Part shown: positions 32,190-62,122 of the stretch, piece after piece
Layout of the letters: each line of letters starts with the position of its first letter
Position numbering within the stretch: the first letter of the stretch is position 1
Assembly (NCBI RefSeq): GCF_001426885.1
Contig: NZ_LMFP01000028.1
Location: forward strand, 73,667-137,666
Reading direction: 5' to 3'
DNA: 64,000 nt
Source of the DNA: Pelomonas sp. Root1444
GTDB taxonomy: Bacteria; Pseudomonadota; Gammaproteobacteria; Burkholderiales; Burkholderiaceae_C
Position numbers and translations under genes: made by a program
Notes under the pieces: model-generated
The model's input: only the letters and a program-made list of their open reading frames with translations
Told to the model about the DNA's origin: nothing
The model's database searches: none

Positions 32190-32205
32190 GGGTTCCTCGG
32201 GGACG

Positions 32206-33660: not shown

Positions 33661-33719
33661 GGTTGCTCCTTGCAGAGATGGAAGGGATGGCGAGCCGCTG
33701 GGCCCGGGTTGGGTGGTCG

Positions 33720-34565: not shown

Positions 34566-34575
34566 GTGTCTGGCT

Positions 34576-37572: not shown

Positions 37573-37575
37573 CGC

Positions 37576-38445: not shown

Positions 38446-38478
38446 GAGGCAGTGATCTCGTTCGAAGGGGAGCCTGAA

Positions 38479-39411: not shown

Positions 39412-39425
39412 GGCAGATCCTCGAT

Positions 39426-44313: not shown

Positions 44314-44327
44314 GGTTCGGCTCCGGG

Positions 44328-45986: not shown

Positions 45987-46028
45987 TGGGCTGTCTCCAT
46001 GCGATCTTGTTTCGACGGTGCTGAGGAA

Positions 46029-46044
46029 AATCGACGAATCGATT
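46029..46044. promoter_or_regulatory. Inverted repeat in the DUF1302/GntR divergent region
   Basis: AATCGA-CGAA-TCGATT is a perfect 6-base inverted repeat in the 176-base region between the DUF1302 gene (minus) and the GntR gene (plus). It is a candidate operator for the adjacent FadR-type regulator, controlling cluster A and itself. It is short, so certainty is modest. Confidence 0.35.
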
Positions 46045-46162
46045 GCGGCGCATGCTAGGTATCGGATCGTCGACAAACCACGGTGGAATCGACTGGTCCA
46101 AATGAACGATGTGCGCGGCGGGCAGATCCGGCCAAATCGCGGCCTTGCTTGTCGATCACCCC

Positions 46163-46846
46163 ATGGAACTTCAGCCGATTGCCGCGTCTGCGCGCAGCCT
46201 CACTTCAATCGCCTTCGAGCGGCTTCGGTCCGACATCCTCGGCGGCGAGTTGCTGCCCCGTGAACGGCTGCCCATCCAGGCGCTGAGCGAGCGCTATCAG
46301 GTCGGCGCCACAGCGATCCGCGAGGCGCTGTCGCGTCTGGTGCCCGAAGGGCTGGTCGCCTGTGCAGACCAGCGTGGCTTCAGCGTGACATCGGTCTCTC
46401 GAGCCGACTTGCTCGACCTGACCGAAACCCGCGTGCGCATCGAGCAGATGGCCCTGCAGCTGGCCATCGAACACGGCGACATCGAGTGGGAGTCGCGCCT
46501 GCTGAGCGCCTTCCACAGGCTGTCGCGCGCACCGGCACCGACCTCGCCCGAACTGGCCACCCAATGGTCGACGGTACACCGTGCCTTCCACGAGACGCTC
46601 GTCGGTGGATGCTCGTCGCCGTGGACCCTGCGGCTGTGCACGCTGCTGTATGACAAGTCGGAGCGCTACCGCAACCTCGCCAAGCAGACGACACGCGAAC
46701 GCGGGCGCGACGTGGCCGCCGAGCACCAAAGCCTGATGGACGCTGCGATGTCGCGCAACGCGGGCCTCGCATGCCAACTGCTCCGTGCCCACTTCAACGA
46801 GACGACCGAGATCATTCTGGCCGGAGGCCTCGTCGGGGACGAGTAG
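46163..46846 (+). CDS. GntR-family (FadR/FCD) regulator
   Basis: ATG 46163 (MELQPIAASARSLTSIAFER) gives 227 aa; an ATG at 46109 is possible. The winged HTH is at residues ~15-80 (LPIQALSERYQVGATAIREA, LVACADQRGFSVTSVS), and the helical FCD ligand-binding domain follows, with the metal-site pattern TRVRIEQMA ... HRAFHETLV ... EHQSLMDAAMSRN. It is divergent from cluster A and is the most likely regulator of it. Confidence 0.88.
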   Translation: MELQPIAASARSLTSIAFERLRSDILGGELLPRERLPIQALSERYQVGATAIREALSRLVPEGLVACADQRGFSVTSVSRADLLDLTETRVRIEQMALQLAIEHGDIEWESRLLSAFHRLSRAPAPTSPELATQWSTVHRAFHETLVGGCSSPWTLRLCTLLYDKSERYRNLAKQTTRERGRDVAAEHQSLMDAAMSRNAGLACQLLRAHFNETTEIILAGGLVGDE

Positions 46847-46877
46847 CCCGCGCCGTCCTGCACCCATGGAGACAACA

Positions 46878-48068
46878 ATGCGAACGACAACGAAGAGCGG
46901 CATCGGCCGGCTCGTGCTGATGACCAGCCACTGCGCCGGCATGGTGGACATGGTGGCGCTGCCGCTTTGGGTGGGGACCTTGGTCGCCACCTATTTGCTC
47001 GACCCTCAGCAGGCAGGCGGCCTGGTGACGCTGTTCCTGCTCGGTGCCGTCATGGCGAGCTTGCTTTTGGCGCCGCGGTTCAATCGGATCGACGGGCGCC
47101 TGGCCGCCACGGTCGGATTCGCCGTTGCTTCGGCGTGCTTCTTTGCATCGGCAACATTGCGACGCTTCGAGCTGCTCGCGTTGCTGCATGCGGTCGGTGG
47201 GGTCGCCGCCGGCGCCGGGCTGTCTTTCACGCACGGCACCATCGGTCGCAGCGCGAATCCACATCGCCTGTTCGGCATGGCCGGCATGGCACTCGGCGTC
47301 TTCGCGGTGCTGCTGCTCGGCGCCGCGCCCCAGCTGATGGTGCGCTTCGGTGGGGCGGCGCTCTTCTACGCATTGGGGGTGGCGATGGCGATTGCAGCGC
47401 TGCTTGCGGCCTGGCGCTTCCCGGTGGCCGATGCCGAGACGCAGGCGTCACGATCGTTTCGTGAATCGGGAGCGAAGCTGCCGTCGCGCGTGTGGTTCGG
47501 CATTGCCGGCATCGGGGCCATGGCACTCGTGCAGGCGATGGTGTATAGCTTCCTTGAGCGCATGGGCTCGGACCGAGGATTCGGCACCGCCACGCTGACT
47601 GCGCTGCTGGTCGCCATCGGCTTTGTGAACATGTTTCCAAGTGGCCTGGCAGCTTTCTTGGAGCGTCGACTCAATGCAACGATCGTGCTCTGCGCCGGGC
47701 CCGCGATTCAGGGCGTTCTGGCGCTCATGATCGCCCTCAGCCACGCAGTGGCGCCGTTCGCCGTCGCTGCTTCGGTGTTCGTAGCAGTGATGTTGTTCAC
47801 CCACACTTTCGCCTTTGGCACGCTTGCCCGGATGGACGTCACGGGCCGAGTGGTTGCCGCCACGCCAGCGATGGTGATGATCGGCTCGGCCATCGGCCCG
47901 GTGCTTGGTGGCACGTTGGCGAAGCTGTCAGGCTACGAGGCGCTTGGTCTTGCAGGCGCCGCGTTCGACGTCCTGGCCCTGGTCTGTTTCTGGTGCCTGA
48001 CGCGCGTGCCGCGCTCTGGTGACCTGGAACTTGCCCCTAACGAGACTCCCGGTGTGAGCAGTTCCTAG
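46878..48068 (+). CDS. MFS-like membrane protein
   Basis: ATG 46878 is chosen because GGAGACA lies 4 bases upstream; the protein has 396 aa and about 12 TM helices (e.g. GGLVTLFLLGAVMASLLLAP, ALFYALGVAMAIAALLAAW, ASVFVAVMLFTHTFAFG). The basic loop RFNRIDGRLAA resembles the MFS motif A position. It is 31 bases downstream of the GntR gene and probably co-transcribed. It may take up or export an aromatic acid. Confidence 0.75.
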   Translation: MRTTTKSGIGRLVLMTSHCAGMVDMVALPLWVGTLVATYLLDPQQAGGLVTLFLLGAVMASLLLAPRFNRIDGRLAATVGFAVASACFFASATLRRFELLALLHAVGGVAAGAGLSFTHGTIGRSANPHRLFGMAGMALGVFAVLLLGAAPQLMVRFGGAALFYALGVAMAIAALLAAWRFPVADAETQASRSFRESGAKLPSRVWFGIAGIGAMALVQAMVYSFLERMGSDRGFGTATLTALLVAIGFVNMFPSGLAAFLERRLNATIVLCAGPAIQGVLALMIALSHAVAPFAVAASVFVAVMLFTHTFAFGTLARMDVTGRVVAATPAMVMIGSAIGPVLGGTLAKLSGYEALGLAGAAFDVLALVCFWCLTRVPRSGDLELAPNETPGVSSS

Positions 48069-48081: not shown

Positions 48082-48942
48082 TCACACGTCGTTGCGCAGC
48101 TCTTTCTGGCAGACGTTCCTCAGCGTACCGACATTCCCAATCTCGACTTCCACGACATCGCCATTGCTCAACCAGCTCGGGGGTTGACGCTTTGCACCGA
48201 CGCCACCTGGCGTGCCCGAAACAATGACGTCACCAGGATACAGCGTCATGAAGGTCGAGCAGTACTCGATCAATTTGGGGATGAAAAAAAGCATCTGCGA
48301 AGTTGTGGCAGCCTGTCTTACTTCGCCATTCACTCGGGTCTCCAGCGTCAGCACCCGATCATCCGGCAATTCATCCAGCGTGATTAGCGCCGGCCCAAAG
48401 GCGCCCGTTCTCGGAAAATTCTTGCCCGGCCCGAACTGATGTGTGTGGTATTGCCAGTCGCGCACCGTTCCTTCGTTGAAACAAGACACGCCGGCCACAT
48501 GGTTCCACGCATGCGATTCCGGAATGCGCCGCCCCTCTTTGCCGATGATGACTGCGAGTTCGCCCTCATAGTCGAACTGGTCTGACTCCTGCGGGATCAG
48601 CAGAGCAGCGCCGTGCGCCTGCAAGGACTCGGCCACGCGCATGAATATCGTTGGGTGGTCGACCTTCGGCCTCTTGGTCTCGACACGATGGTCTTCGTAG
48701 TTGAGGCCCACGCAAAGTATGTTTCGCGGATTGGGTATCACGGGCTCCAACCGAACATCCGCCAGTGCAAAGTCAGGCGCCTCGTCGCAGTATTTCGCCG
48801 CCTGCTCGAGCAAGTCGTTGGCCAACAGAGTTTTCAGGTCCTGTGCACGGACGCCCAGGCGGCGCGGCAAGTCGATGACTCCGTCCCTCACCCAAAGACC
48901 GCATGAGGCAATCCCGTTGCGGGAATACGAAATGAGTTTCAT
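48082..48942 (-). CDS. Fumarylacetoacetate hydrolase family protein
   Basis: The 286-aa protein has the FAH motifs FDYEGELAVIIGKEGRR (metal-binding ExE), GVSCFNEGTVRDWQ (with Asn where most family members have Asp) and LYPGDVIVSGTPGGVG. It is the last gene of cluster B, 41 bases after the extradiol dioxygenase gene, so it likely hydrolyses that enzyme's product. The Asp-to-Asn change at a usual metal-ligand position (FNEGTVRDWQ against xNDxTxRDWQ) is notable and may alter metal binding. Confidence 0.87.
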   Translation of the reverse strand: MKLISYSRNGIASCGLWVRDGVIDLPRRLGVRAQDLKTLLANDLLEQAAKYCDEAPDFALADVRLEPVIPNPRNILCVGLNYEDHRVETKRPKVDHPTIFMRVAESLQAHGAALLIPQESDQFDYEGELAVIIGKEGRRIPESHAWNHVAGVSCFNEGTVRDWQYHTHQFGPGKNFPRTGAFGPALITLDELPDDRVLTLETRVNGEVRQAATTSQMLFFIPKLIEYCSTFMTLYPGDVIVSGTPGGVGAKRQPPSWLSNGDVVEVEIGNVGTLRNVCQKELRNDV

Positions 48943-48983
48943 ATTTCTAAGTTCCTTAACTCTTGATCAATGGCCGCAATGAC

Positions 48984-49811
48984 TTAACTTCGCATGATGG
49001 CTGAACCCCAGAGATTGAGGGTGCGGGGTTCATGGCACCAACGTCCGGCCTCGCGGTTTTCCGGGCACTTTTCAAGGTCGCAGGAAATCTCTGCCAGATT
49101 GCCATCAGGGTCGCGCACCATGAAAAACGTATCGTTCCCAGGACCATGGCGACCAATACCCCAAGCCAGCTCATGGCGCGCCTTGCTCATGTGGTCCGCC
49201 CAATCTCGTAGGCTGTTCCAGTCCAAGGTTTCGCAAGAGAAATGATCAAAACAGGTAGCGGGCGCCCGAAACACAGCCAGAGCGTGGTGCTCAACATCGG
49301 TTCTGAGAAATACCGCGCTCACATCCCCTTTGTCGTCATAAACCCAATCCGACGGAACAAATCCCAGCTTCTGGATGTAGAAGTTCGCCAAGTCCGCGGG
49401 CTGGGCAGACCGAACGGCGTAATGCTGCAGCCGTGCGGGAAGTCGCTGGCACACATCGAGAGGATGGGGCCTAACTCCGCAACGAAATCGCAAAAGGCAG
49501 CCAGTGGGGTCCGTCAGTACAACGCAATCACCCCGCTTATCGCTGCTCCGCACGAATTCGACGCCTCGGCGTACCAGATCCGCCGTGAATCGAATGAAGT
49601 CATCCGCTCCGACAAACTGCCAGTGCGCCTCCAGCAATTGGTTCGGCCGCCCTGCTTTCAACCAGATCGACCTTTGGCTGGCCTCGCAGCGGTGCACATT
49701 GCCGACACGACTGATCTCGTAGCCAAAAGCGTCCCTGTAAAAGGCGGACATGCACTCTGCCTGACCGGTGGCCAGAACGAGACGTTCCAGCGTGGCGCCT
49801 ATCGTCAACAT
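48984..49811 (-). CDS. Two-domain extradiol dioxygenase (VOC)
   Basis: The 275-aa protein has two VOC modules. The second carries the Fe(II) triad: His in RLQHYAVRS, His in CFDHFSCE and Glu in GNLAEISCD. The N-terminal module lacks such residues, as in catechol 2,3-dioxygenases. It should cleave the ring of a dihydroxylated aromatic formed by the flavin monooxygenase encoded upstream in the same operon. Confidence 0.85.
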   Translation of the reverse strand: MLTIGATLERLVLATGQAECMSAFYRDAFGYEISRVGNVHRCEASQRSIWLKAGRPNQLLEAHWQFVGADDFIRFTADLVRRGVEFVRSSDKRGDCVVLTDPTGCLLRFRCGVRPHPLDVCQRLPARLQHYAVRSAQPADLANFYIQKLGFVPSDWVYDDKGDVSAVFLRTDVEHHALAVFRAPATCFDHFSCETLDWNSLRDWADHMSKARHELAWGIGRHGPGNDTFFMVRDPDGNLAEISCDLEKCPENREAGRWCHEPRTLNLWGSAIMRS

Positions 49812-49830
49812 CTATGGGCCCCTGAAGCAG

Positions 49831-50628
49831 TCAGATTCCGCCGTCGATCACCAGATTGACGCCGGTGATGAAGTCGGCACTGGGACTCGCCAGGAAAGTC
49901 GCTGCCGCAGCGATATCCATGGGGCGACCTACGCGCGGCACGCTCTGACGGAAGATGTCGACGGCGATCTGCCGCTCATGGGCTTGCCACCCTCCGTCCA
50001 TCTTCAGTTCCGCGGCAATGCTGACCAGCTCGTTGTCGGATCCAGGCGTGTGGATGATCCCGGCGCTGATCGCATTGGCCGTCACGCCGGTGCCTGCGAG
50101 GCTGCGCGAGAGGCTGCGCGACAAGTTGATCTCGGCAGCCTTGGCCGCCTGGTAGTCGGGGAAATGGGGCGGCTGATGCAAGGCCACCGCACTGGCGATC
50201 TGGATCACGCGGCCCCAGCTGCGCTCGGTCATCGCCGGCACCAGCCTGCGAATCAACGTGGCGGTGCCCACAACGTTCTGCTTGTAGGTCTCGATCCAGG
50301 TGTGCTCGTCGGTATGGAACCAACCGTCGCGCGTCCAGGGTCCGTGACGTCCCCCGGCGTTGTTGACGAGGATGTCCACGCCGCCCAGGTCCAGCACCTG
50401 TTGGGCCACGGCGTCGGCTTGGCCGGGCAACTTCAGGTCGCCCAGCACTTCGTCGGCCTTGCCGCCCTGCGCGCGGATGGCGGCGGCCGTGCGAGCGGTG
50501 CGCACGGCATCCCGGCCGTGCACGATGACATGGGCGCCAGCGCTGGCCAACGACATCGCGATGCATTCGCCAATGCCCGAGCTGCTACCGGTGACTAGGG
50601 CGCGACGTTGAGAAAGATCGAGGTTCAT
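49831..50628 (-). CDS. Short-chain dehydrogenase/reductase
   Basis: ATG 50628 gives 265 aa, the classical SDR length. The cofactor motif is TGSSSGIGE, the structural motif NNAG, and the catalytic residues are Ser in IASAVAL and YQAAK (YxxxK). HGRD at the end of beta-2 suggests NADP preference. It probably oxidises or reduces a pathway alcohol or ketone; the substrate is unknown. The 19-base gap to the VOC gene places it in the same operon. Confidence 0.9.
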   Translation of the reverse strand: MNLDLSQRRALVTGSSSGIGECIAMSLASAGAHVIVHGRDAVRTARTAAAIRAQGGKADEVLGDLKLPGQADAVAQQVLDLGGVDILVNNAGGRHGPWTRDGWFHTDEHTWIETYKQNVVGTATLIRRLVPAMTERSWGRVIQIASAVALHQPPHFPDYQAAKAAEINLSRSLSRSLAGTGVTANAISAGIIHTPGSDNELVSIAAELKMDGGWQAHERQIAVDIFRQSVPRVGRPMDIAAAATFLASPSADFITGVNLVIDGGI

Positions 50629-50662
50629 GAAGGTAATGAAGCAAGAAGCCGAAGGGACAGGC

Positions 50663-51970
50663 TCAGGCCGCGATCGCGGCGGCCTTCTGGTGGGCTTTGT
50701 CGACGCCGGGAACGGCCGCCATGCCGGACGAGAAGGGAGGCAGGCCCATGAGCTGCCGGCCGCTGATCTCGGCCGCCGGGTCCAGACGCGTCGAACCGTG
50801 GGTGAGCGCGACGCGCACGTCGCGGGCAAAGCGCTGGATCGGATTCTTCAGGCTCACCGTCGCAGAGCCGACCGCGATCTGGATCATGTCGATCGCCGCG
50901 CCACAGACGTTGCCGGCATGCACGAGGTCCATCATGATCTCGGCCTCCTCGGCCGCGCCGAACGCTTCGCCCGCGGCGGCCTTGCGATCGATGTAGTCGG
51001 CGCGCGAAAAGATCAGCGCCTGCGCCGCATTGATCATGGCGCGGGTCTTGCCGGCGACGACCTGCACGGACGGCGTTGCAGCCACGGTGTCGTAGGGCAG
51101 GTTGAACGGCTTTCGGTTGCGGGATTGCTCGACGAAGCAATCGAACGCGCCTTGCGCCATGCCCAACGTGATGGCCATCGTGTCCATCGCGACGATGAGC
51201 ATCAGCCCGCGCCCGTCGACCAGGGCATAGCCCGGGCCTTTGAATCGCTTGTGCAAACCATCCAGGCGCTTCGGGAATTCGGCCAGAGCCGCCACCCGGT
51301 GCTCGGGCACGAACACCTCGTCAACCGTCCGAATGCTGTTGCTCGACGAGCCGCTCAGCCCCATCACCTGCCAGTCGTCGACGATCTCGTACTGGCCCTT
51401 CTCCAGCAACACCATCAGCCGCTCGACCTGGCCGTCCGCCGACTCGACCTCGGCCCCGACGACGAGGAAGGCCGCATGCTTGCTGCCGCTGCCGAACCCC
51501 CACTGATTGCCCTTGGCAACGACGTAGCCGCCTTCGACGCGCCAGGCTCGCTGGATCTTGTCGGAGAACAGCGACGCACTGGCCACCACCGGGCCGGGCC
51601 ACTCGAGGGCGCGCCCGTAGACCTCGGCCACCGCCTGGTCCGGGAACGTCAGCATCACGCGGGCGAAGCCACTGGCGATCATCGTGGTCCAGCCGGCCGA
51701 GCCATCGCCGCGCGCAACAGTGCTGACGATCTCCGCCAGGTCGCGGGCGCCAAGCGCCTCGCCTCCGAACTCTTGAGGCACGGAGATGCGAAAAAGACCG
51801 GTCGCGTGCAATGCCTGCAACGTCTCGGGCGGCAGGCAGCCCAGTCGCTCACCCTCCAGGGCGTTCTTGCGGATCAACGGCACCAACTCGGCCACGGCAT
51901 CGCGGATGCGCCGTCCTGCCGGGGTGCTGTAAGGAGACTCGTGAATGGAGGTTTGAGAAGCTGTGGACAT
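50663..51970 (-). CDS. Group D flavin-dependent monooxygenase (acyl-CoA dehydrogenase fold)
   Basis: ATG 51970 gives 435 aa. The protein has the acyl-CoA dehydrogenase fold (LFRISVPQEFGGEALGARD, GDGSAGWTTMIASG, VMGLSGSSSNSIRTVDEVFV) but in the version of oxygenase components such as HsaA and DszC: it lacks the catalytic Glu of dehydrogenases and has a HpaB/HsaA-like C-terminal part with R-x-x-R-D (IQRFARDVRVALTHG). It would use reduced flavin from the adjacent FMN reductase to hydroxylate a phenolic ring. Confidence 0.85.
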   Translation of the reverse strand: MSTASQTSIHESPYSTPAGRRIRDAVAELVPLIRKNALEGERLGCLPPETLQALHATGLFRISVPQEFGGEALGARDLAEIVSTVARGDGSAGWTTMIASGFARVMLTFPDQAVAEVYGRALEWPGPVVASASLFSDKIQRAWRVEGGYVVAKGNQWGFGSGSKHAAFLVVGAEVESADGQVERLMVLLEKGQYEIVDDWQVMGLSGSSSNSIRTVDEVFVPEHRVAALAEFPKRLDGLHKRFKGPGYALVDGRGLMLIVAMDTMAITLGMAQGAFDCFVEQSRNRKPFNLPYDTVAATPSVQVVAGKTRAMINAAQALIFSRADYIDRKAAAGEAFGAAEEAEIMMDLVHAGNVCGAAIDMIQIAVGSATVSLKNPIQRFARDVRVALTHGSTRLDPAAEISGRQLMGLPPFSSGMAAVPGVDKAHQKAAAIAA

Positions 51971-52019
51971 TGATGTTCCTGAAGTTGAGGAGCGTGACGC
52001 TGTAGAACGAGGGGGCCCG

Positions 52020-52832
52020 TCACCACGCCAGCGCGACGCCCAGCGGCAAGATTTCCCGGATCTCGTCGATCTGACGGATGTGCCCATCGACCACCTTGAA
52101 GGCGGCCATCATGTAAAAGGAGCCGTTGTCCGGCCGGGGGCTGTTGGGCACCGGATGAAAGTCCACCGTGACCAGGCTGATGGCCACGCCACGACCCACG
52201 TCGAGCACCGGATAGCTTCGTCCCCGCGCCAGCGGTCGCGCGCCACGCGTGGCGTTCACGCAGCTGGCCACGGTGTGCACGGCTGCATCCGGCGACAGCA
52301 GCGTTGAAAGGTTGTTGGTGATCTTCTTGCCGTTGTCGTAGCGGTCGCAGCGGTAGTCGAAGCGCGCCATCGAACCATCGCTCTCCTGCAGCGCGCTCCA
52401 ATAACTGTCGGCGGCGCGCTGTAGGCCAGCGCGATCCACACTCCGCGCCGGCGGCACCGGTGCGTCATACAGCACGTCAGGGCGCAGCAGTTGGTCCACG
52501 TCGGCGAAGTGGCCCTTCGGATCGGAGCCCACCACGGCCTCGGCTTCGCACACCTGGCCGTCTCCACAACCCAGGCGCAGGGCAAACGGGCGCCGCTGGC
52601 CCTCGATCACCACCACGCCCAGGCAGCACCACTGTCGCTGCACCGCATCGGCAAAGGCCTGAAGGCCCAGGAACGCCTGGGCACCCCGCCAAAGCCCCGC
52701 ACCCACGGGCACCTCTTTGAGGTTCTCGGTGGCACGATGGTGGCGCGCCAATGGGACCGACTCGGGATCTCCCTGGCGCAAGGCCTGAAGGTACTGCTCA
52801 CCCAGCCGGTGCAATGCCGGTTCGTCCATCAT
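52020..52832 (-). CDS. SnoaL/NTF2-like protein, 270 aa
   Basis: It starts at ATG 52832 after GGAGACA (a second ATG follows immediately). The sequence MMDEPALHRLGEQYLQALRQ and the C-terminal half VTVDFHPVPNSPRPDN ... MMAAFKVVDGHIRQIDEIRE fit one or two cone-shaped NTF2-like domains. Such proteins act as small isomerases, dehydratases or binding proteins. It lies between the FMN reductase and monooxygenase genes in the operon. The specific role is unknown. Confidence 0.6.
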   Translation of the reverse strand: MMDEPALHRLGEQYLQALRQGDPESVPLARHHRATENLKEVPVGAGLWRGAQAFLGLQAFADAVQRQWCCLGVVVIEGQRRPFALRLGCGDGQVCEAEAVVGSDPKGHFADVDQLLRPDVLYDAPVPPARSVDRAGLQRAADSYWSALQESDGSMARFDYRCDRYDNGKKITNNLSTLLSPDAAVHTVASCVNATRGARPLARGRSYPVLDVGRGVAISLVTVDFHPVPNSPRPDNGSFYMMAAFKVVDGHIRQIDEIREILPLGVALAW

Positions 52833-52913
52833 CCTGTCTCCTAACGTGGTGTTGTGTCGGCGCCGCCTGCGTGCCCAACGCTTATGGAGCCATGCTAGGA
52901 AACAGGCGCCGAC

Positions 52914-53516
52914 TTAACTAGACGTCGCTTTGGCAGCAATGCCGAGGCTGTCGAGCACCTGTTGACCGAGAAGAGTCAGCTGGCGCTGAATCGATTCGCT
53001 CAGGCAGCGTCCTTCGGCATCGAATACAGGTTCGCCGCCGGTGTGGATCGGCACGCCGAACGGTGTGTTCCAACCTCGCAGCGCATGCACCACGTCTCTC
53101 AGCGCTCCGAGCGTGCCCACGCAGCCCTGCCAACCACCACCCGTCGTCAACGAGCCAACCGCGCGGCCGCTGAAATAGGCGCGCTCGTCGTCGCGCAGGT
53201 CTTCCGCGTAGTCCAGTGCGTTCTTCACCACGCCGGAGATGGAGCCGTGGTAGACCGGTGAGCCGATATACAGGCCATCGGCACGGCGTAGTTGCTCCAC
53301 CAGGTAGCGTGCTGCCCCGGTCCGCTTGTCGGCGCCATAGGTGTAGAACGGCAGGTCCAAGGCTTGGCCGGTGATCAAACAGGTGTCGCAGCCGGCATCG
53401 GCCGCCTGGTCCAGCAGAAGCTGCAAGGCCTTCTGCGTTGACGATGAGCCGTGCAGGCTTCCGCCCAGGGCAACGACCAGAGGCCGCCGCCCTGCTCTTT
53501 CGAACAGGGGAATCAT
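52914..53516 (-). CDS. NAD(P)H-dependent FMN reductase (flavodoxin-like)
   Basis: The 200-aa protein has the family motifs LGGSLHGSSSTQKAL (phosphate-binding loop) and GSPVYHGSISGVVKNALDY (flavin-binding) in the usual positions. It would supply reduced FMN to the group D monooxygenase two genes downstream. Both are encoded in cluster B, which supports a two-component hydroxylase. Confidence 0.88.
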   Translation of the reverse strand: MIPLFERAGRRPLVVALGGSLHGSSSTQKALQLLLDQAADAGCDTCLITGQALDLPFYTYGADKRTGAARYLVEQLRRADGLYIGSPVYHGSISGVVKNALDYAEDLRDDERAYFSGRAVGSLTTGGGWQGCVGTLGALRDVVHALRGWNTPFGVPIHTGGEPVFDAEGRCLSESIQRQLTLLGQQVLDSLGIAAKATSS

Positions 53517-53531
53517 GAGAACCTCAGTACG

Positions 53532-55031
53532 TCAGAACGGGTAACGCGCAGGTTTGGTGCCCAGCGTCATCCATTGCCATTCGGTGAACTCGTCCCAGTT
53601 GGTGGTGCTGCCAAACCGCGAGCCGTTGCCCGACGCACCCATGCCGCCCATCGGAATGCCAGGCAGGTCGGAGATGGTCTGGTCGTTGATGTGCACCATG
53701 CCCGAGCGGATCGCGCGAGCGACGCGCAGGCCGCGATCGAGGGAAGCCGTATACACCGCACCGGACAGGCCGTAATCGGTGTCGTTGGCCAGTGCGATCG
53801 CATGCTCTTCGTCATCCGCGACGATCACCGGTGCGACCGGACCGAAGATCTCATGGTCGTAGGCCGGCATGCCGGGACGCACATTGGCCAGCACGGTGGG
53901 CCGGTAGTACGGACCTTCGAAGTTGCCACCGGCCAACAGAGACGCACCGGCCGACACCGTTTGCGTGACAAGTTCGTGCACGCGGGCGATCTGCTTGCGG
54001 TTGATGATCGGGCCGATCGCGACCTCTTGACGGAAGGGATCGCCAACGGGCAAACGGGCGGCACGTTGCGACAACGACTCGAGGTAGGCATCAACCACGC
54101 TGCGCACGACGATGTGGCGGCCCGAAGCCATGCAGATCTGGCCCTGGTGCAGGAACGAGCCCCACGCACCGGCGGAGGCTGCAGCATCGATGTCGGCGTC
54201 GTCGAGCACGATGAACGGGCTCTTGCCGCCCAGTTCCAGCGACACCTTCTTCAGATGCCGTCCCGCCAACTCACCGACTCGGCGACCCACGGCGGTAGAG
54301 CCGGTGAACGTGATCAGCCGCACGCCCGGTGCGGTGACCAGCGCCTCACCGACGTCCGCAGCGCCGTTGACCACTTGCAGCAAGCCTGCGGGCAGACCGG
54401 CCGCTTCGAAAACCCGGGCGAGCACGACGCCGCCGGTGATCGGTGTCTGCGGGTCGGGCTTCAGGATGACGGCATTGCCCAGTGCCAGAGCCGGCGCCAC
54501 CGAGCGCATGCCCAGCAGCAGCGGGAAGTTCCACGGCGTGATGACGCCCACCACACCGAGAGGCACCCGGCGGGCCAGGCTCATGCGGTCCGGATCGTGC
54601 GAGGGCAGCACGTGGCCCTGCGGCTCGATGAGCAGCGCCGCCGAGTGGTACAGCTCGCCGATGGTGCCGGCCATCTCGGTCTGCGCCTTGCCAGGCAAAC
54701 CACCGGTCTCGCGGATGATCCATTCCACCAAGGTGTCACGGTGTTCTTCCATCAACGCCGCCGCACGCCGCAGCAACGCCGCACGCTCGTCCGTGGAGGT
54801 CGCCGCCCATGCGCGCTGGGCCTGCTGTGCCACTGGCACGGCGGCCAGCACCGCAGCCGGACTGCTCGCGCCTACCGTGCCCAGCAACGTGCCGGTCGCG
54901 GGCTCCGCGACTTCTATGCGTCCGTTGCTGGCGTCATGCCAGGCACCGTCAAACGTCTTGTCCGTCCACGTCGAGGCCGCCAACAATCCCGAGGCGTCGA
55001 GCTTTGCGAACGTGGGGTTGAGCTGATCCAT
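53532..55031 (-). CDS. Benzaldehyde/vanillin-type aldehyde dehydrogenase
   Basis: ATG 55031 gives 499 aa. Signatures: VSLELGGKSPFIVLDDADID (catalytic Glu), LHQGQICMASGRHIV (nucleophile Cys), and a C-terminus VHINDQTISDLPGIPMGGMG of the benzaldehyde dehydrogenase (XylC/Vdh) group. It should oxidise the aromatic aldehyde released by the carotenoid-oxygenase-family enzyme. Its first 28 codons overlap the end of the upstream GntR gene by 83 bases. Confidence 0.9.
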   Translation of the reverse strand: MDQLNPTFAKLDASGLLAASTWTDKTFDGAWHDASNGRIEVAEPATGTLLGTVGASSPAAVLAAVPVAQQAQRAWAATSTDERAALLRRAAALMEEHRDTLVEWIIRETGGLPGKAQTEMAGTIGELYHSAALLIEPQGHVLPSHDPDRMSLARRVPLGVVGVITPWNFPLLLGMRSVAPALALGNAVILKPDPQTPITGGVVLARVFEAAGLPAGLLQVVNGAADVGEALVTAPGVRLITFTGSTAVGRRVGELAGRHLKKVSLELGGKSPFIVLDDADIDAAASAGAWGSFLHQGQICMASGRHIVVRSVVDAYLESLSQRAARLPVGDPFRQEVAIGPIINRKQIARVHELVTQTVSAGASLLAGGNFEGPYYRPTVLANVRPGMPAYDHEIFGPVAPVIVADDEEHAIALANDTDYGLSGAVYTASLDRGLRVARAIRSGMVHINDQTISDLPGIPMGGMGASGNGSRFGSTTNWDEFTEWQWMTLGTKPARYPF

Positions 55032-56568
55032 GGGATTTATCCTTTGCTTCGTGAGAAAAAATCGCACCAGCCGGAGCGGCGGGCTGCGAAGGAAACGCCG
55101 AACCGATCAGATCGCGACAACGTTTCATGACATCAAGCTTTTGAGACTGGAGGCGGGCAGCCTCGGCCCTCTCGCCATCGGCAATCGCGTCAAGCACCGC
55201 TTGGGTCGCGGCGACATACAGGTCGACCGCCCAATAGGGCAGCATGAGTTGCTCACCCATGTCCCAGGATAGGAAGGCCTTGACACCATCCAGGCAGGCG
55301 ACAAGCAAGTCATTGCCTGCCAGGCAGCCCTGCAGGCGCTCGATGGGCTGCAGCGCCGAAACACTTTGTTGACCGCTGAGCAGGTGCTGCAGATGCTCCT
55401 CCACCACGCGCACCGCCGCGGCATCACCGCGCCGAACGGCCTTGCCCGCACCCAGCACGGCCACTTCGATGGAGAGCTGGCGGAAGGCCGATTCGACGTC
55501 GGCCTTTGGCACCCGCTGCGACACGAGGAAGATGCACAACAACCTGCTGATCGAGGCCGTGCCGGGCCGGCGCGTCACGAGGCCATGTCCGCGCCCAGGA
55601 AGCGTCACGGCGGTGCCGGCGTCTTCCATCATCCGGATGGCCTGGCGGATCACGCTGCGGTCGACTCCGAACCGTTCGCACAGGTCAAGCTCGTTGCCAA
55701 TGGGCACTCCACGAGCCCAGTCCCGAGAATCAACGCTGTCCATCAACCCACGCATGACACTCAATGCGGGCATGCGCGGGTGACGCGCCAGATCATCCGG
55801 GGGAAGTGGCATGTCGACGGGACGGTCACCCTGTTGCCGCCTCAAGGCCTGCAGGTTGTGCCGCTCGACAGCGCGAAAGAGCCGTTCGGCCCGGCGAACC
55901 GCTTCGAGCGCACGTCCTTGCCGAAGGTCGGCAATCACCGCACGCAGCAATGGCTCAAACCAGGCGCTCGGCCGGCAGTTCATCACCGGAGGCAGCATGG
56001 GCCCGAGCAGCTCGGCAAATCGCGTCAACACGGTGTTGCCAGCGCAGGCCATCAGGCGTTGAGCAAAGCGTCGGAGCGCCGCGACCGCGCTCTCTCCGGG
56101 CGCCACATCCAGCACCGGCAGCGACATGTCACTGCACTCGGTCAGTTGGCGCATGGCAGCCACGTGCAGCGCACACCATGTGTCCAGCAGGTCTGACCAA
56201 GGCAACGCAGCGATATGCGAGAAGCCTTGCAGCATGCGGGTCACGTGCAGTGCCGTGGGTCCCCGCAGTTCCAGCCCGCCTTGGGCGCCTCGGCGCATGA
56301 CGGCAGTCTCCCTGACCTCCAGGACTCGCACCGTCTCACGCATCACGTCGCGCCCGACACCGTAAAAGGCCGCCAATTCGGCTTCGGTGCCATAGAGCCG
56401 GCCGTGGGGCCAGCCCTCTCGAATGAAGCGTTCTTCAAGTTCATGCGCCACCGTCAACGGCAGCTTCGTGCGGACCGCTTCGTCCCCCACCACGCTGGCG
56501 TAGAGAACGGACAGGCCTTCGCGTTCTTCGTCGGTCGAGACTGGCGGACTGTGGGGGGTCTTGGACAT
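54949..56568 (-). CDS. Regulator with two tandem GntR-like winged-HTH/FCD units
   Basis: ATG 56568 gives 539 aa, twice the length of a normal GntR-FadR regulator. The first winged HTH is at ~40-105 (LYGTEAELAAFYGVGRDVMR, ETAVMRRGAQGGLELR) with a helical FCD-like part to ~260. The second HTH is at ~272-337 (GNELDLCERFGVDRSVIRQA, GTAVTLPGRGHGLVTRR) with another helical part. One chain would therefore act like a built-in dimer. It overlaps the ALDH gene by 83 bases. It probably regulates cluster B. Confidence 0.8.
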   Translation of the reverse strand: MSKTPHSPPVSTDEEREGLSVLYASVVGDEAVRTKLPLTVAHELEERFIREGWPHGRLYGTEAELAAFYGVGRDVMRETVRVLEVRETAVMRRGAQGGLELRGPTALHVTRMLQGFSHIAALPWSDLLDTWCALHVAAMRQLTECSDMSLPVLDVAPGESAVAALRRFAQRLMACAGNTVLTRFAELLGPMLPPVMNCRPSAWFEPLLRAVIADLRQGRALEAVRRAERLFRAVERHNLQALRRQQGDRPVDMPLPPDDLARHPRMPALSVMRGLMDSVDSRDWARGVPIGNELDLCERFGVDRSVIRQAIRMMEDAGTAVTLPGRGHGLVTRRPGTASISRLLCIFLVSQRVPKADVESAFRQLSIEVAVLGAGKAVRRGDAAAVRVVEEHLQHLLSGQQSVSALQPIERLQGCLAGNDLLVACLDGVKAFLSWDMGEQLMLPYWAVDLYVAATQAVLDAIADGERAEAARLQSQKLDVMKRCRDLIGSAFPSQPAAPAGAIFSHEAKDKSHGSAQPHVRKARRLGIVGGLDVDGQDV

Positions 56569-56595
56569 GTGAGATTCCAATGACAAGGGAACCGA

Positions 56596-57876
56596 TCAGG
56601 ACAAGACTTTCGGCGCAACAAACGGCCCCTGGCCGGTACGCAGTGGGTCCAGAGCTTCAGCCTCGTGAACGACCTTGAACGCCTTTGGGCTCAGCGTGGC
56701 CATCAAACCTGCAGCCAGCACGGCGGCGGCGACCGCACCCATCATCGGAGCGTTGTAGGAACCCGAGGCATCGAAAGCCAAGCCGATCAGCCATGGTCCG
56801 CACCCGATCGCCGTCATGCTGCAAGCAAACGCCAATCCGAGGATCTCGGCCGACGCGCGCTGACCGAAAAACCGTGTGACGAGATAGGGCAGGAGCAACA
56901 CCACCACGCTCATCGTCATGCCCATGAAGGCCGAGGCCGTCACCAGCATCGGCAGGCCGTCGGCCACCCCCATCAAGAGGAGTGCAGCAGCAGGCAAGAG
57001 GTACATGCCGGCCGTCGCCCACCGAGAGCGAAGGCGGTCGAGCATCGCGCCCACGACGAACGAACCCACCAGTCCTGCAACCGCCTGAGCCGACAGCAAC
57101 AACGCCGACACGTCAATGCTGACTCCGCGGGTACGCTGCCAGGACACGAGGTGAGCCTGTGCCCCAATCAACGCACCGGCGACGAGGCATTCAGCTACGG
57201 TCAATGTCCAGAAGGTTCGCGAACGAAACGCTTGCCGCGCGGTCCAGCCAGCGCTGCCTGCCATGGGACCGCCTACGGCTTCTTGGGGCTGCGCAGCTGC
57301 CGGTCGCGTGCGAACCAACGCCAGCACGGCCGCCCCCGCGATCAACAACACGGCCAACGCAAGCAACCGGTAGGACTGGCGCCAGCCATATTCCTGTACG
57401 AGCCAGCGAACCAAGGGGGCGAAGCCGGCCTGCGCCAGCATCGGCGACATCGCGAGCACGAGACCCATCACGATGCCGCGCCGCCGGTCGAACCAGGAGG
57501 ACACGACCTTGATGTGTGCCAGCGGGCCTCCCAGAGCAGCGCCCATGCCGATCAGCACACCCGCGCCTATGAACACCAGCCCCGGGGCTTCGATGGTGGA
57601 GAGCAGGAACAAGCCGAAGGCGAGGCTCAGCGTGCCGGCGAGCAACGGCCAGCGCACGTCGACCCGGTCGATGAAGCGGCCGGCGATGGGGTTGCAAATC
57701 GCTCCGGTCACCGAGGCCACCAGGACGATCTGCGGAAATACCGACAGCCCCCATCCCATCGAAGCGGAGACCGACTCGAGGAACACGGGGAACGACCCCA
57801 TGAACACCGCCGACATCCCCAGCGCCATGCAAACGCCACTGCCCAGTGCGGCGAGCATGCGGGTCGAATTCCTCAT
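56596..57876 (-). CDS. MFS transporter (oxalate/formate antiporter-like)
   Basis: ATG 57876 after GGAGACA gives 426 aa with 12 predicted TM helices. Features: AGRFIDRVDVRWPLLAG (motif A-like loop), GPLAHIKVVSSWFDRRRGIVMG (typical of the OFA/monocarboxylate branch) and a central loop at ~200-225. It is likely the inner-membrane importer of the substrate taken up by the TonB receptor, or of a breakdown product. Confidence 0.88.
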   Translation of the reverse strand: MRNSTRMLAALGSGVCMALGMSAVFMGSFPVFLESVSASMGWGLSVFPQIVLVASVTGAICNPIAGRFIDRVDVRWPLLAGTLSLAFGLFLLSTIEAPGLVFIGAGVLIGMGAALGGPLAHIKVVSSWFDRRRGIVMGLVLAMSPMLAQAGFAPLVRWLVQEYGWRQSYRLLALAVLLIAGAAVLALVRTRPAAAQPQEAVGGPMAGSAGWTARQAFRSRTFWTLTVAECLVAGALIGAQAHLVSWQRTRGVSIDVSALLLSAQAVAGLVGSFVVGAMLDRLRSRWATAGMYLLPAAALLLMGVADGLPMLVTASAFMGMTMSVVVLLLPYLVTRFFGQRASAEILGLAFACSMTAIGCGPWLIGLAFDASGSYNAPMMGAVAAAVLAAGLMATLSPKAFKVVHEAEALDPLRTGQGPFVAPKVLS

Positions 57877-57923
57877 CTTTGTCTCCTGCTCGGCGCCGCT
57901 CCAGCAGTGCGGCGCCTTTGGCT

Positions 57924-58355
57924 TCAGCGCGTTTCCTTGAGGGCGCCGTCCCAGTGCTCGGCCAACTTGCCGTCCTCCACGCGCCACATATCAAACCAGT
58001 ACGAGTTGTAGGTGCGTGAAGGATCTTGCGGGTCCGGCAACTCACGCACGAGCATCATCACCACCTTGTCACCTTCGGCGATCAGCACGGGCGGCGCGGA
58101 TGCCGGGCGCATGTTCTGGCGCGCACGTGCCGCCTCCGGCGTTCGCGTGAAAGCGATGATCGAATCGACACCCGAGGCGATGTTCGGGTTGTGCTGGATA
58201 TAGCTCTCGGTCAAGAGCGGGCGTACCTGCTCTGCCGTGTCGGGGTTCACCAGCAGAGACATCATCTTGAGCACCAGCTCTTTGTTGGCCTGCTGCTGCG
58301 TGCCTGCGGTGCTGGACGCATCTGCCAGATGGAAGGGATGGTCAGGGGTAGTCAT
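57924..58355 (-). CDS. SnoaL/NTF2-like protein, 143 aa
   Basis: ATG 58355 with GGAG upstream. Sequence features of a SnoaL-like domain: a long first helix (QANKELVLKMMSLLV), the segment LLTESYIQHNPNIASGVDS and the terminal strands WFDMWRVEDGKLAEHWDGAL. Its close spacing (4 bases) to the carotenoid-oxygenase-family gene suggests a dedicated partner, perhaps handling the aldehyde products. Confidence 0.8.
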   Translation of the reverse strand: MTTPDHPFHLADASSTAGTQQQANKELVLKMMSLLVNPDTAEQVRPLLTESYIQHNPNIASGVDSIIAFTRTPEAARARQNMRPASAPPVLIAEGDKVVMMLVRELPDPQDPSRTYNSYWFDMWRVEDGKLAEHWDGALKETR

Positions 58356-58359
58356 CAAC

Positions 58360-59841
58360 TTATCTCCAGGCCGGAATGAGCGAACCGTCAATCCAGTTCG
58401 AATGGATGCCCAGGCGCAGGCGCACGGGCAGCTTCACGCGAGCCACCGGTCCAGCGGCGAGCCGTCGGCTTTCCAGGATCACCAGCTCGTTCGACTTTTC
58501 CAGAGGCCGGTTCAAGACGACGATCAGGTAGCCATCGTCCTCATCGGCAGTGGCGCTGCGGGGAAAGTACACCGGGTCCTGCAACGTCGCGCCTTCACCG
58601 GCATACCAGTCCTCGCGGTGACCGGTGGCCAGATCGAAGTGCGTGAGCTGGTTGAAGAACACCGGCACCACGCGACCGTTGCGATCGGTGATGAGGCGCG
58701 AACGGTTCAGCGTCGGCGCGAACACGTGCCGGTACGACTGGCACAGCCGGCGCGGATCGATATGCGGACCTTCGCCATCGGCGACAGCGAGCACCTGGTG
58801 CTCGGTCAGTTCCTCCGAGGGCGCGTGGTAATCGATGCGCCACCGCATAGCGCGCGTCGTGACCTTCGACGGATCGCCCATGCGACCGTGCTTGTCCGGC
58901 ATCACCGCGGCAAAGCCGTTGCCATCGCACTCGTAAGCGTCGAAGACGATGCGCCCGTCCTCCTCGAAGGCGTTGATGGTGTGCCCCGTGAACGTGGGCG
59001 GCGCATGGAACCAACGCACTTGGTCGGCGCGGCCCTTGCGCGGGATCACGCCGATCACGGTGGGCAAGTCAGGGTCGTACACCCAGTGCTGGCCGCCGGC
59101 CTTCAGGCGCTCAAGGTCGGTGGTCAGCGGCATCAACGGGAAGAGCATGTAATGCTCGGTCAACGCACAGTCGTGGATCATCGCGGCGTACGGCGCCTCG
59201 AACCACGCCTCGTGGACCATCTCGCCGTCCGCGTCGAAGACGTAGTAGGCCAGGTCACGGGTCGTTTCACCGCGCGCCGCGTAACCAAAGCCATGCATTT
59301 CGCCGTTGGCCGGGTCCCACTTTGGATGGGCCGTGAACGTCTTGCTGGTGATCTTCCCGCCCGGGTTCCACACCCCTTTGGTTTCCAGGGTCACCGGGTC
59401 GATCTCGTAGGGCAGCCCGTCCTCCTTCGAGGCGAGCAGCCGGCCGGCGTGCATGTACACGGCGGTGTTGGCGGTGGTGCGGTCCTGGCCTGCAACGCTG
59501 GGGTCGTCGGAGAACGGGTCTCGGTAGTTGCCGAACAAGGAGCGACGGGCGGCTTGCTCCAGCAGATACCGCTGGGTGCGGACGTGGCGCGTCTTGAAAT
59601 CGACGCATCCGTCCTTGATGCGGAACGCCCGCACCGCACCATCACCGCCTGCGGCAACGGTCATCGGCCAAAGCGGCGCGACTTCAGGGGGATACATCGG
59701 GTCCGGCACGGCCTGAACGAAGAGGCCGTCGATATCGGTGGGCACCTCACCTTCGATCAGCTCGAGGTCGGCGACCTCAATGTCAAAGCGGCAAGGTCCA
59801 TCAATTCCTTCCGCCAATGCAGCGGGAAAGGGCTTGGTCAC
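58360..59841 (-). CDS. Stilbene-cleaving carotenoid-oxygenase-family dioxygenase
   Basis: The start is taken as GTG 59841 because GGAGACA lies 4 bases upstream; an ATG 42 bases earlier is less likely. The protein has 493 aa. The four iron-binding His are H172 (TAHPKW), H223 (MIHDCA), H287 (GHTINAFEE) and H480 (GIHSNW). Y106 (FGNYRDPF) and K139 (ASKEDGLPYEID) match, at a constant offset, the Tyr and Lys that bind the 4'-hydroxyl in NOV1/lignostilbene dioxygenases; carotenoid cleavers lack this Lys. The enzyme should split the central C=C of a hydroxystilbene such as resveratrol into two aromatic aldehydes. Confidence 0.9.
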   Translation of the reverse strand: MTKPFPAALAEGIDGPCRFDIEVADLELIEGEVPTDIDGLFVQAVPDPMYPPEVAPLWPMTVAAGGDGAVRAFRIKDGCVDFKTRHVRTQRYLLEQAARRSLFGNYRDPFSDDPSVAGQDRTTANTAVYMHAGRLLASKEDGLPYEIDPVTLETKGVWNPGGKITSKTFTAHPKWDPANGEMHGFGYAARGETTRDLAYYVFDADGEMVHEAWFEAPYAAMIHDCALTEHYMLFPLMPLTTDLERLKAGGQHWVYDPDLPTVIGVIPRKGRADQVRWFHAPPTFTGHTINAFEEDGRIVFDAYECDGNGFAAVMPDKHGRMGDPSKVTTRAMRWRIDYHAPSEELTEHQVLAVADGEGPHIDPRRLCQSYRHVFAPTLNRSRLITDRNGRVVPVFFNQLTHFDLATGHREDWYAGEGATLQDPVYFPRSATADEDDGYLIVVLNRPLEKSNELVILESRRLAAGPVARVKLPVRLRLGIHSNWIDGSLIPAWR

Positions 59842-59977
59842 TACTGTCTCCTGTTGGTGCGTCCGGAGCCATTTCCGGGGCATGCCTGCACCTTACGTGG
59901 GTCAACCAGATCAAACCAGACGGCAGATTGACCCGGTCAGACCTTCATTGGTGGCGATGACCGAAATCAGCCTTGTC

Positions 59978-62122
59978 TCACCGAAAGGTCTTGTTCCAGA
60001 CCAGGCCGTAGGTGCGAGGGGCTCCGCCCCTCAGCCAGCCCGAGCTGTAGAAGTTCTTGACGTAGACGTTGTGGATGTTCTTCACGTAACCGTTGAGCGA
60101 CCAGTCGCCCTGGGAGGGGCGCCACGTCAGGTTGAAGTCGCCCGTCCAGAAGCTGTCCTGCATCGAGAGCGGTTGCTCGTTGGGCGACACGTAGTACTTG
60201 GTCACATAACGACCATCAAGGCGCGCCACGAGCTTGCCACTGTCGAAAGACTGGGTGCGCTGGTAGTACGCACCGATCGTCCAGGTCGGCGAGTGCGGCA
60301 GGGTGCTGCCGTTGAGATCGACGCTGACGTTCTGGCCGTCGGGGTGGATCACGATCGTGCTGCGAAAGCGCGAGTTGATGTAGCCCACGCGAGCGCCCAG
60401 CGCATCGGCTTCAGCAGGCCGCCATTGCGCCTCGATCTCGGCGCCCATGTTGCGCGCCTTGGGCGCGTTGGAGAACGCGAGCACCGGGCCGAGCGTCGGA
60501 TCGACGTAGAAGTCTTGCACCTGATAGTCGCGGTAGTCGTAGTAGTACACCGCGGTGTTCAAGCGCCAACGATCATCCGCACTTTGGGTCTTCCATCCCA
60601 GTTCGTAGGAGCGCAGCGATTCCGGCCGGATGCCCGGGTAGTCCGGCGGCATCGTGCTCCAGGCGCCGGGGCGATAGCCCGTGGAAATGGTGGCATAGCC
60701 CATGGTCTTGGGGCCGAAGTCTTGCTCGAGACCGATCTTCCAGTCCGCGCGGTGCCAGGTGCCCGACGAGTCGCCCGGCGTAGCCGGGAAACGGTCCGTG
60801 GTCTGCCACTTGTCATCGATCGTGTAGCGCAGTCCCGCGACGGCGCGAGTGGTGCTGGTCAGCGAATAGGTGGCGTTGCCAAAGACTGCTTTCGAGCGGG
60901 CACCCGAATTCTGGTGGATCGTCCCGCCAGCCAACGGACCGGTCAGCGGCCGCTGGATGATGCGCATGTCGTTGTCGTAGTAGTACAGACCGACAAGCGT
61001 CTTCATGTGCTCGACGGGTTGCGACGCCAAGCGAACTTCCAGTGTGTTCTGCCTCAGCGAGTGGGGATCTTCCCCGTCGTCGTCGACGAGCCATGAACCC
61101 GTGGGAATGAACTGGTGGTTATGGCCTCCACTCGTCGCGGTGAGCACCGACAGCTTGCCGAGGCTGGTTTTCGCGTCGAGCTGTGCCCAGTACTTGGTGC
61201 CGATGTAACGCTCGGACGGCCCTGTGATCGGGTTCGCCGTTTTCCACGGGTCTTTCACCGAGTTGCCGGCGAAGGCGGGAACGTAGCCAGCACCGGCGCC
61301 ACCGAGATCCACGTACTCAAAGCCAAACAGAGCCGAGGCGTCCTCACTGAGCTCGAACAACAGCTTGGCGCGAAGCGATTTCTGGTCGGCGTCGCTGGTG
61401 CCGTTGTTGTAGTACGGGTCGTGCTTGAGCACGCTGCCGGCGACACGAATGGCCACGTTGTCCGTCAACTCGCGGTTCAACATGCCCTCCACGCGACGGG
61501 TGCCATAGGACCCGAGCTCAAGCGCCAGTGCACCTTCGTTGTGGAACCCTGGATCATTGCTGATGATGTTCACCACGCCCCCGGGGCCGGAGCGGCCATA
61601 GAACGTGGACTGGGGGCCGCGCAGCACTTCCACCCGGGCCAGGTCGTACATGACCTGCGTACCCTCGGGCCGGGCGTTGTAAGTCCCATCCACGTTGATA
61701 GCGACCGCGCCATCCCCCACGCCAGGCGACAGGTCGGTGCCCAGGCCACGCACGGCTACCAGATAGCCACGCGGCTGAGTCTGCACCACCACGCCGGGTG
61801 TGCCCTGAATCACTGTGTCGAGGCGGTTCAACCCTTGCTCTCGGATCTCCTTGCCGCTCACCACGGCCGTGGAGATCGAGGTCTTCTGCAGGTTCTGGCT
61901 CACCCGCTGAGCCGTGACCACGACCGTCTCGAGCTTCGCACTGGAAGCGGCCTCGTCAGTCGAAGGAGCCGGGGCATCAGCCGCAGGGGCAGAGGCGGCC
62001 GGAGCGACAGGTGCGGCGACCTCCTGTGCATAGGCAGGCGCGCAGCAGGCGCCCGTCAACAGAAGCATCGGCCAACCGTTGCGGGCGGCACGGCGACTCA
62101 CCTTGGCATATCGCTTTTTCAT
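59978..62122 (-). CDS. TonB-dependent outer-membrane receptor
   Basis: The 714-aa protein has a signal peptide (1-32), a Pro/Ala-rich linker, a TonB box-like LETVVVTAQR, a plug domain (TSISTAVVSGKEIREQGLNR, VEVLRGPQSTFYGRSGPGGV) and a barrel ending in YGLVWNKTFR. The plug matches the FyuA/Fiu-like aromatic-ligand group used by sphingomonads and burkholderias for plant phenolics. It is the first gene of cluster B, 136 bases upstream of the stilbene-cleaving enzyme, so it likely imports that substrate. It is preceded by a small leader ORF. Confidence 0.92.
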   Translation of the reverse strand: MKKRYAKVSRRAARNGWPMLLLTGACCAPAYAQEVAAPVAPAASAPAADAPAPSTDEAASSAKLETVVVTAQRVSQNLQKTSISTAVVSGKEIREQGLNRLDTVIQGTPGVVVQTQPRGYLVAVRGLGTDLSPGVGDGAVAINVDGTYNARPEGTQVMYDLARVEVLRGPQSTFYGRSGPGGVVNIISNDPGFHNEGALALELGSYGTRRVEGMLNRELTDNVAIRVAGSVLKHDPYYNNGTSDADQKSLRAKLLFELSEDASALFGFEYVDLGGAGAGYVPAFAGNSVKDPWKTANPITGPSERYIGTKYWAQLDAKTSLGKLSVLTATSGGHNHQFIPTGSWLVDDDGEDPHSLRQNTLEVRLASQPVEHMKTLVGLYYYDNDMRIIQRPLTGPLAGGTIHQNSGARSKAVFGNATYSLTSTTRAVAGLRYTIDDKWQTTDRFPATPGDSSGTWHRADWKIGLEQDFGPKTMGYATISTGYRPGAWSTMPPDYPGIRPESLRSYELGWKTQSADDRWRLNTAVYYYDYRDYQVQDFYVDPTLGPVLAFSNAPKARNMGAEIEAQWRPAEADALGARVGYINSRFRSTIVIHPDGQNVSVDLNGSTLPHSPTWTIGAYYQRTQSFDSGKLVARLDGRYVTKYYVSPNEQPLSMQDSFWTGDFNLTWRPSQGDWSLNGYVKNIHNVYVKNFYSSGWLRGGAPRTYGLVWNKTFR

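Follow-up and report, generated by a model that had tools for sequence, protein, structure and literature searches.

The 64,000-nucleotide stretch of Pelomonas sp. Root1444 analysed here (contig NZ_LMFP01000028.1; hereafter the window) carries twelve minus-strand genes in a single run, from 62122 down to 48082, in which neighbouring open reading frames (ORFs) overlap or are separated by gaps of at most 94 bp. The explanation that we tentatively favour, with confidence a little short of even, is that the run is a catabolic operon that has passed from one phylum to another and serves to break down an aryl-alkene from plants, similar to a 4-hydroxystilbene but bearing more substituents than resveratrol or differing from it in some other way. 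A sequence-only reading of the same DNA had proposed a catabolic operon for resveratrol-type stilbenoids. Family scans find every gene that it named in the one run: a TonB-dependent receptor, a carotenoid-oxygenase-family dioxygenase, a major facilitator superfamily (MFS) transporter, an aldehyde dehydrogenase (ALDH), a two-component flavin hydroxylase, a short-chain dehydrogenase/reductase (SDR), an extradiol dioxygenase, and an FAH-family hydrolase. Absent from its list were a SnoaL/NTF2 protein (NTF2a), a DUF8021/NTF2-like protein (NTF2b), and a double-GntR regulator. The catabolic assignment holds up, in that the run has, besides an enzyme resembling stilbene cleavers, candidate enzymes to oxidise aldehydes, to hydroxylate and cleave rings, and to carry out hydrolysis; the resveratrol-type substrate is not supported.

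Apart from the dioxygenase, nothing in the 5.9-Mb genome matches the RPE65 family. The enzyme's membership of that family is established by its PF03055 match (422 bits) and four histidine iron ligands, and its closest solved chain is 5v2d, the structure named in the available text of PMC6097328 for the lignostilbene dioxygenase (LSD) of P. brassicacearum, PbLSD. According to the same text, PbLSD cleaves resveratrol to 4-hydroxy- and 3,5-dihydroxybenzaldehyde and prefers resveratrol in vitro. The window enzyme shares with the known LSDs (PbLSD, LSD4/LsdD, NOV1/NOV2, LsdA) the four histidines and the equivalents of Tyr-101, Thr-121, and Lys-134. In an alignment of 127 dioxygenase sequences, His186, His237, His301, His494, Tyr120, and Lys153 are invariant, the last two corresponding to Tyr-101 and Lys-134, which hold the 4-hydroxyl group in LSDs. 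The four histidines and the stilbene-cleaver Tyr and Lys had been predicted correctly.

The substrate pocket is another matter. Phe-59, which stacks on the phenol ring in LSDs, is replaced by Ala78 in the window enzyme and in all 47 members of its subclade (Ala78 being part of the clade definition), whereas the other 80 relatives have Phe (54), Ile (18), His (4), Leu (3), or Val (1) at this position. A four-residue insertion is likewise present in 47 of 47 subclade members and in none of the 80 others, and it carries an aromatic or histidine residue in many of the 47 (Tyr in 14, His in 14, Trp in 6, Phe in 3). Together, Ala78 and the insertion suggest an altered substrate pocket; one might guess that the aromatic or histidine residue stands in for Phe-59. 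The subclade, represented by 24 rows in the tree, is split from the other nine rows with 100/100 branch support, and the two NCBIfam lignostilbene equivalog models score 501 and 455 bits against cut-offs of 800 and 650. Both the dioxygenase and the helper genes set the operon apart from known stilbene degraders, which makes plain resveratrol an improbable substrate. Carotenoid cleavage was rejected as the principal function, since the score of 219 bits with the 8'-apo-carotenoid model (cut-off 675) is far under those of the LSD models.

In the proposed scheme, the compound would be imported by the TonB receptor and the MFS transporter, and the dioxygenase, using iron on four histidines and O2 and holding the phenol hydroxyl with Tyr120 and Lys153, would cut the C=C bond to give two aldehydes. 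Both could be oxidised by the ALDH, whose nearest relatives of solved structure are 4-hydroxybenzaldehyde and benzaldehyde dehydrogenases. The resulting 4-hydroxyphenyl acid would pass to the chromosomal PobA and LigAB enzymes for 4,5-cleavage. To ready the other ring, the hydroxylase, dependent on flavin mononucleotide (FMN), would act together with its reductase and perhaps with the SDR and the two NTF2 proteins; the extradiol enzyme would then open the ring, and the FAH enzyme would hydrolyse the product. The steps would presumably follow in this order, in an operon that is presumably induced. Among NCBIfam models, the hydroxylase scores best against those of phenol hydroxylases, HsaA (173 bits, below the cut-off of 450) and HpaH-type. 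The extradiol enzyme is of type I: His130, His190, and Glu241 of its second domain, which we take to be the metal ligands, align with catechol 2,3-dioxygenase (1mpy).

The genome encodes PobA (661 bits; cut-off 539), LigA (227; 109), and a LigB-type class III extradiol beta subunit (580; 317) within 6.3 kb, as expected for 4,5-cleavage of 4-hydroxybenzoate; neither LigAB subunit on its own reaches the cut-off of 837 set for the alpha/beta fusion. A 4-hydroxybenzoate half therefore has a route, and the extradiol enzyme of the operon is free for another ring. The idea that this enzyme is required for the 4-hydroxybenzoate half was rejected because LigAB is already present, and an intradiol route was set aside on finding one marginal partial match only (27.3 bits, at the cut-off).

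Conservation elsewhere argues that the gene set is not a chance assembly, because bacteria of another phylum carry it too. When named genomes were scanned, 13 dioxygenase loci came up; the 12 at no less than 64% identity, five of them closely alike Streptomyces, were searched for the neighbouring genes with tblastn. NTF2a adjoins the dioxygenase in all 12, and the MFS, double-GntR, NTF2b, hydroxylase, and SDR genes each occur in 11, the misses falling at contig ends (L009, L011). The FAH gene is found in nine and the ALDH, at 51% identity or more, in seven, while TonB receptor matches occur in five of the six proteobacterial loci, at 28–33% identity outside Root1217. The core of dioxygenase, two NTF2 proteins, hydroxylase, SDR, MFS transporter, and double GntR is thus kept from proteobacteria to Streptomyces scabiei, and the pattern indicates that reductases, ALDHs, and ring-cleavage genes are interchangeable around it. 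In the Streptomyces stelliscabiei locus (L003), for instance, the upstream genes include those for a glyoxalase-type protein, an MhpA-like flavin adenine dinucleotide (FAD) hydroxylase, an FAH enzyme, and an IclR protein, and the SDR gene is followed by a Flavin_Reduct gene, of a family other than that of the window's FMN reductase. When shared longest-contig size served as a proxy for co-occurrence (24 dioxygenase rows, 22 of 120 hydroxylase rows, 16 of 120 NTF2b rows), 10 of 24 dioxygenase clusters paired with a hydroxylase and 7 with an NTF2b, as far as a proxy can tell. Near the operon in Streptomyces and Amycolatopsis there is also a second, distant RPE65-family gene (24–27%) beside an ALDH gene (L003:80-1432 and L013:17076-18569).

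The tree and the patchy occurrence of the dioxygenase gene suggest that the operon has moved between phyla. The window enzyme joins those of Streptomyces and Amycolatopsis (100/99), away from Burkholderiaceae, and the Robbsia and Burkholderia gladioli enzymes join Caulobacter and Nitrospirillum (99/96). Among 40 genomes (its own and 39 relatives), the gene is present only in its own and in G002 (95%), taken as Root1217, eight others giving matches of 30–33%; in a class-wide sample of 369 genomes it occurs in its own alone. Identity matrices of the dioxygenase, hydroxylase, SDR, and GntR proteins correlate with one another (r 0.62–0.94, 7 or 8 taxa). Plasmid records include 100 with a match, all below 60% identity and none as close as the operon-linked relatives.

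Several observations weigh against the favoured explanation. The Tyr, Lys, and His residues are common to all 127 aligned sequences, the 80 relatives outside the clade included, so they do not identify a substrate, and the absence of Phe-59 makes even stilbene cleavage uncertain. PbLSD was inactive on the C40 carotenoids tested in vitro, yet lowered lycopene by more than 40% in vivo (available text of PMC6097328), so a carotenoid may still prove to be a substrate. The extradiol gene is one of those less often kept, reaching the tblastn threshold in 3 of 12 loci, and at the Caulobacter locus both the FAH and the extradiol match are missing. In S. stelliscabiei it is the separate MhpA-like hydroxylase whose gene accompanies the glyoxalase-type and FAH genes, which raises the possibility that an enzyme other than the two-component hydroxylase primes the ring for cleavage. 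Finally, NTF2b distances follow those of the SDR (r 0.89) but only weakly those of the dioxygenase (r 0.50), and MFS distances do not track the other core genes, one of the seven MFS rows being a faulty 15-residue translation.

It is rather unlikely that resveratrol itself (or piceatannol or pterostilbene) is the substrate, with the hydroxylase, or the molybdenum (Mo) enzyme of a nearby cluster A, acting on 3,5-dihydroxybenzoate ahead of ring opening by an extradiol enzyme and hydrolysis by an FAH enzyme. The proposed route for both halves of resveratrol is partly borne out: PobA and LigAB would serve the 4-hydroxyphenyl half, the Mo enzyme is nearest to pyrogallol hydroxytransferase and has its own extradiol and FAH genes, and Root1217 keeps both clusters at the same spacing, about 25 kb from the Mo gene start to the dioxygenase gene end. 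Resveratrol as the starting compound fits less well with the lost Phe-59 and the missed lignostilbene cut-offs, and no Mo gene was found in the 10-kb flanks of the other operon loci, to which the search was confined. Nor does it suffice that candidates exist for every step, as had been pointed out: it is hard to see what the best-kept genes (those for the two NTF2 proteins, the SDR, and the flavin hydroxylase) would do in the breakdown of plain resveratrol, and few loci keep the extradiol gene. The NTF2 and SDR genes would be accounted for if the substrate were a lignin- or lignan-type dimer that an NTF2 protein deformylates to a stilbene, in the manner of LdpA and PcfL, the SDRs setting stereochemistry and the dioxygenase then cutting. 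In lignin-dimer pathways, NTF2 proteins and SDRs feed stilbene cleavage, and in sphingomonads NTF2 deformylases and SDRs feed lignostilbene dioxygenases (available parts of PMC12997858 and PMC11323797, the sphingomonad case from the former). The LdpA/PcfL–LSD pathways for beta-1 and beta-5 dimers resemble the operon in an NTF2-fold protein beside the dioxygenase, an SDR, and an ALDH, and the constant pairing of NTF2a with the dioxygenase is in keeping with them. However, the likeness found here between the NTF2 proteins is one of fold; the operon adds a flavin hydroxylase, left unexplained, as well as the DUF8021 protein and the double GntR. A PDB sequence search gave no match named as a deformylase of the LdpA/PcfL type, and the fold matches are SnoaL, limonene epoxide hydrolase, the CaMKII hub, and other NTF2 proteins, which is compatible with a deformylase. 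We consider this origin of the stilbene unlikely.

The hydroxylase would find a place if, with the SDR and an NTF2 protein, it formed a module like Iac or Iif on an indole-like or heteroaromatic plant compound, the dioxygenase cutting a non-stilbene C=C bond of the compound or of a product. The front end of indole and indole-3-acetate breakdown does combine a flavin oxygenase, an SDR, and a SnoaL-fold protein (available part of PMC7225977), the oxygenase having an acyl-CoA-dehydrogenase fold in iac, and 4 of 120 listed hydroxylase homologues are named indole-3-acetate monooxygenase. That name is probably automatic, and the best NCBIfam matches point to phenols. Rieske dioxygenase and amidase genes belong to iac clusters; family scans of the twelve operon genes matched neither, and the window module is linked to an RPE65 dioxygenase. 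An indole-type substrate is accordingly quite improbable. Lignin-dimer or indole-type roles would nonetheless account for genes that plain resveratrol does not, which favours a 4-hydroxystilbene-like compound other than resveratrol. A broader possibility, held more loosely than that reading, is an undescribed aromatic-dimer pathway in which a dioxygenase branch lacking Phe-59 works together with a flavin hydroxylase of Iac-like type, an SDR, and both NTF2 enzymes (one of them DUF8021). Its substrate would be a compound of plant defence or of the plant cell wall, and the set would have passed between Actinomycetota and Proteobacteria, with S. scabiei and its kin, known for the scab habit, among its carriers.

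Other known systems share single features with the operon. The pin pathway of Novosphingobium rhizosphaerae LY also uses an LSD-family cutting enzyme, PinU (available part of PMC12607616), but family scans of the twelve genes reveal no flavocytochrome of the PinVW kind. The fde, ifc, and hcd modules have ring hydroxylation, extradiol cleavage, and hydrolysis in common with it. FdeE and HcdA are single-component hydroxylases, as is the Streptomyces neighbour enzyme (L003:6066-7754). The window hydroxylase is of the two-component kind, whereas IfcA is a flavin hydroxylase of group A (available part of PMC11069340); the isoflavone (ifc) cluster was rejected as the same system on this ground, and the same text mentions no lignostilbene, SnoaL, or acyl-CoA dehydrogenase. 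Judged by titles and the beginnings of abstracts, none of the open-licence papers listed by the literature searches describes the gene set.

The AlphaFold2 model of NTF2a (mean pLDDT 86) matches NTF2, SnoaL, and epoxide-hydrolase folds. In the copy of Pfam that was used, nothing matches NTF2b; PF26061 is assigned to its homologues, some of which bear DUF8021 in their names. The NTF2b model (mean pLDDT 86) finds NTF2-fold matches mainly over residues 1–113, and the secondary structure of the model indicates that it probably comprises two NTF2-like domains in tandem. The shared fold shows no function for either protein, and the lack of an LdpA-named entry among the top 50 fold matches of NTF2a excludes nothing. 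The halves of the double GntR are 27% identical over 165 residues.

If the favoured explanation is right, the operon is a genetic marker for a compound, probably of plant origin, that is eaten by bacteria of two phyla. It would supply a pathway context for DUF8021, a name found in none of the open-licence papers searched. Its dioxygenase would offer a naturally occurring variation on the stilbene-cleaver pocket, one that could let an enzyme family of interest for biocatalysis and lignin conversion act on more substrates. The operon is a clear, testable gene set.

Features of the 64-kb window. Coordinates are those of the longest ORFs, some of which overlap because of start choice; homologue starts place several probable true starts later, near 59841 (GTG) for the dioxygenase and 50631 for the SDR.
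Feature	Position	Strand	Basis
TonB-dependent receptor, first operon gene	59978..62122	-	PF00593 (114 bits), PF07715
RPE65/carotenoid-oxygenase-family dioxygenase, LSD-like	58360..59883	-	PF03055, 422 bits; best PDB 5v2d
SnoaL/NTF2-fold protein (NTF2a)	57924..58355	-	PF12680 (SnoaL_2)
MFS transporter	56596..57987	-	PF07690
Double-GntR regulator, tandem duplicate	54949..56586	-	PF00392 at 279-333; GntR-type NanR model at 36-90
ALDH	53532..55067	-	PF00171, 525 bits
NADPH-dependent FMN reductase, presumed hydroxylase partner	52914..53516	-	PF03358
DUF8021/PF26061 protein (NTF2b), 270 residues	52020..52832	-	homologues with PF26061
Acyl-CoA-dehydrogenase-fold flavin hydroxylase, HsaA/HpaH/IacA-like	50663..52087	-	PF08028; PDB 2jbr
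Classical SDR	49831..50829	-	PF00106; motifs TGxxxGIG, NNAG, YxxxK
Type I (VOC) extradiol dioxygenase	48984..49811	-	PF00903; PDB 3b59, 1mpy
FAH-family hydrolase	48082..48942	-	PF01557
Divergent GntR-FCD regulator, beside operon	46109..46846	+	family scans
MFS transporter, beside operon	46785..48068	+	family scans
Cluster A, putative companion ring-cleavage module	31293..42179	-	family scans; collinear with Root1217
Cluster A MMPL exporter	39426..42179	-	
Cluster A extradiol gene	38479..39549	-	ends 8.5 kb from operon
Cluster A FAH	37576..38445	-	
Cluster A Mo transhydroxylase-like enzyme	34576..37572	-	PF21423; 4v4c, 850 bits
Cluster A ALDH	32206..33933	-	
Cluster A ADC-family gene	31293..32189	-	

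The best solved relative of the cluster A Mo enzyme is pyrogallol hydroxytransferase, the pyrogallol–phloroglucinol transhydroxylase, with which it shares PF21423; it has in addition an N-terminal extension of about 135 residues, and a small subunit was not identified, no specific search having been made. Among the 39 relatives, the enzyme is 99% identical in Root1217 and 54% in G033, with weak matches or none elsewhere; in G033, none of the other 24 query proteins matches the 20 kb around the homologue. The operon and cluster A are collinear with Root1217, at 93–97% DNA identity over 26896–64000, and retention in two near relatives hints weakly that they share a role. The interval between the operon and cluster A holds DUF1329 and DUF1302 genes (42952–46076), next to the MMPL exporter.

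Identity to Root1217 is 77% over 21782–26822, before the more similar stretch begins at 26896, and genes for transposase-domain, KfrA-like, and integrase proteins (20505–26825) adjoin the catabolic region. A flavohaemoglobin-like gene (27242–28585) and the divergent gene of a GAF/sigma-54 activator (28578–30101) together look like a nitric oxide response pair.

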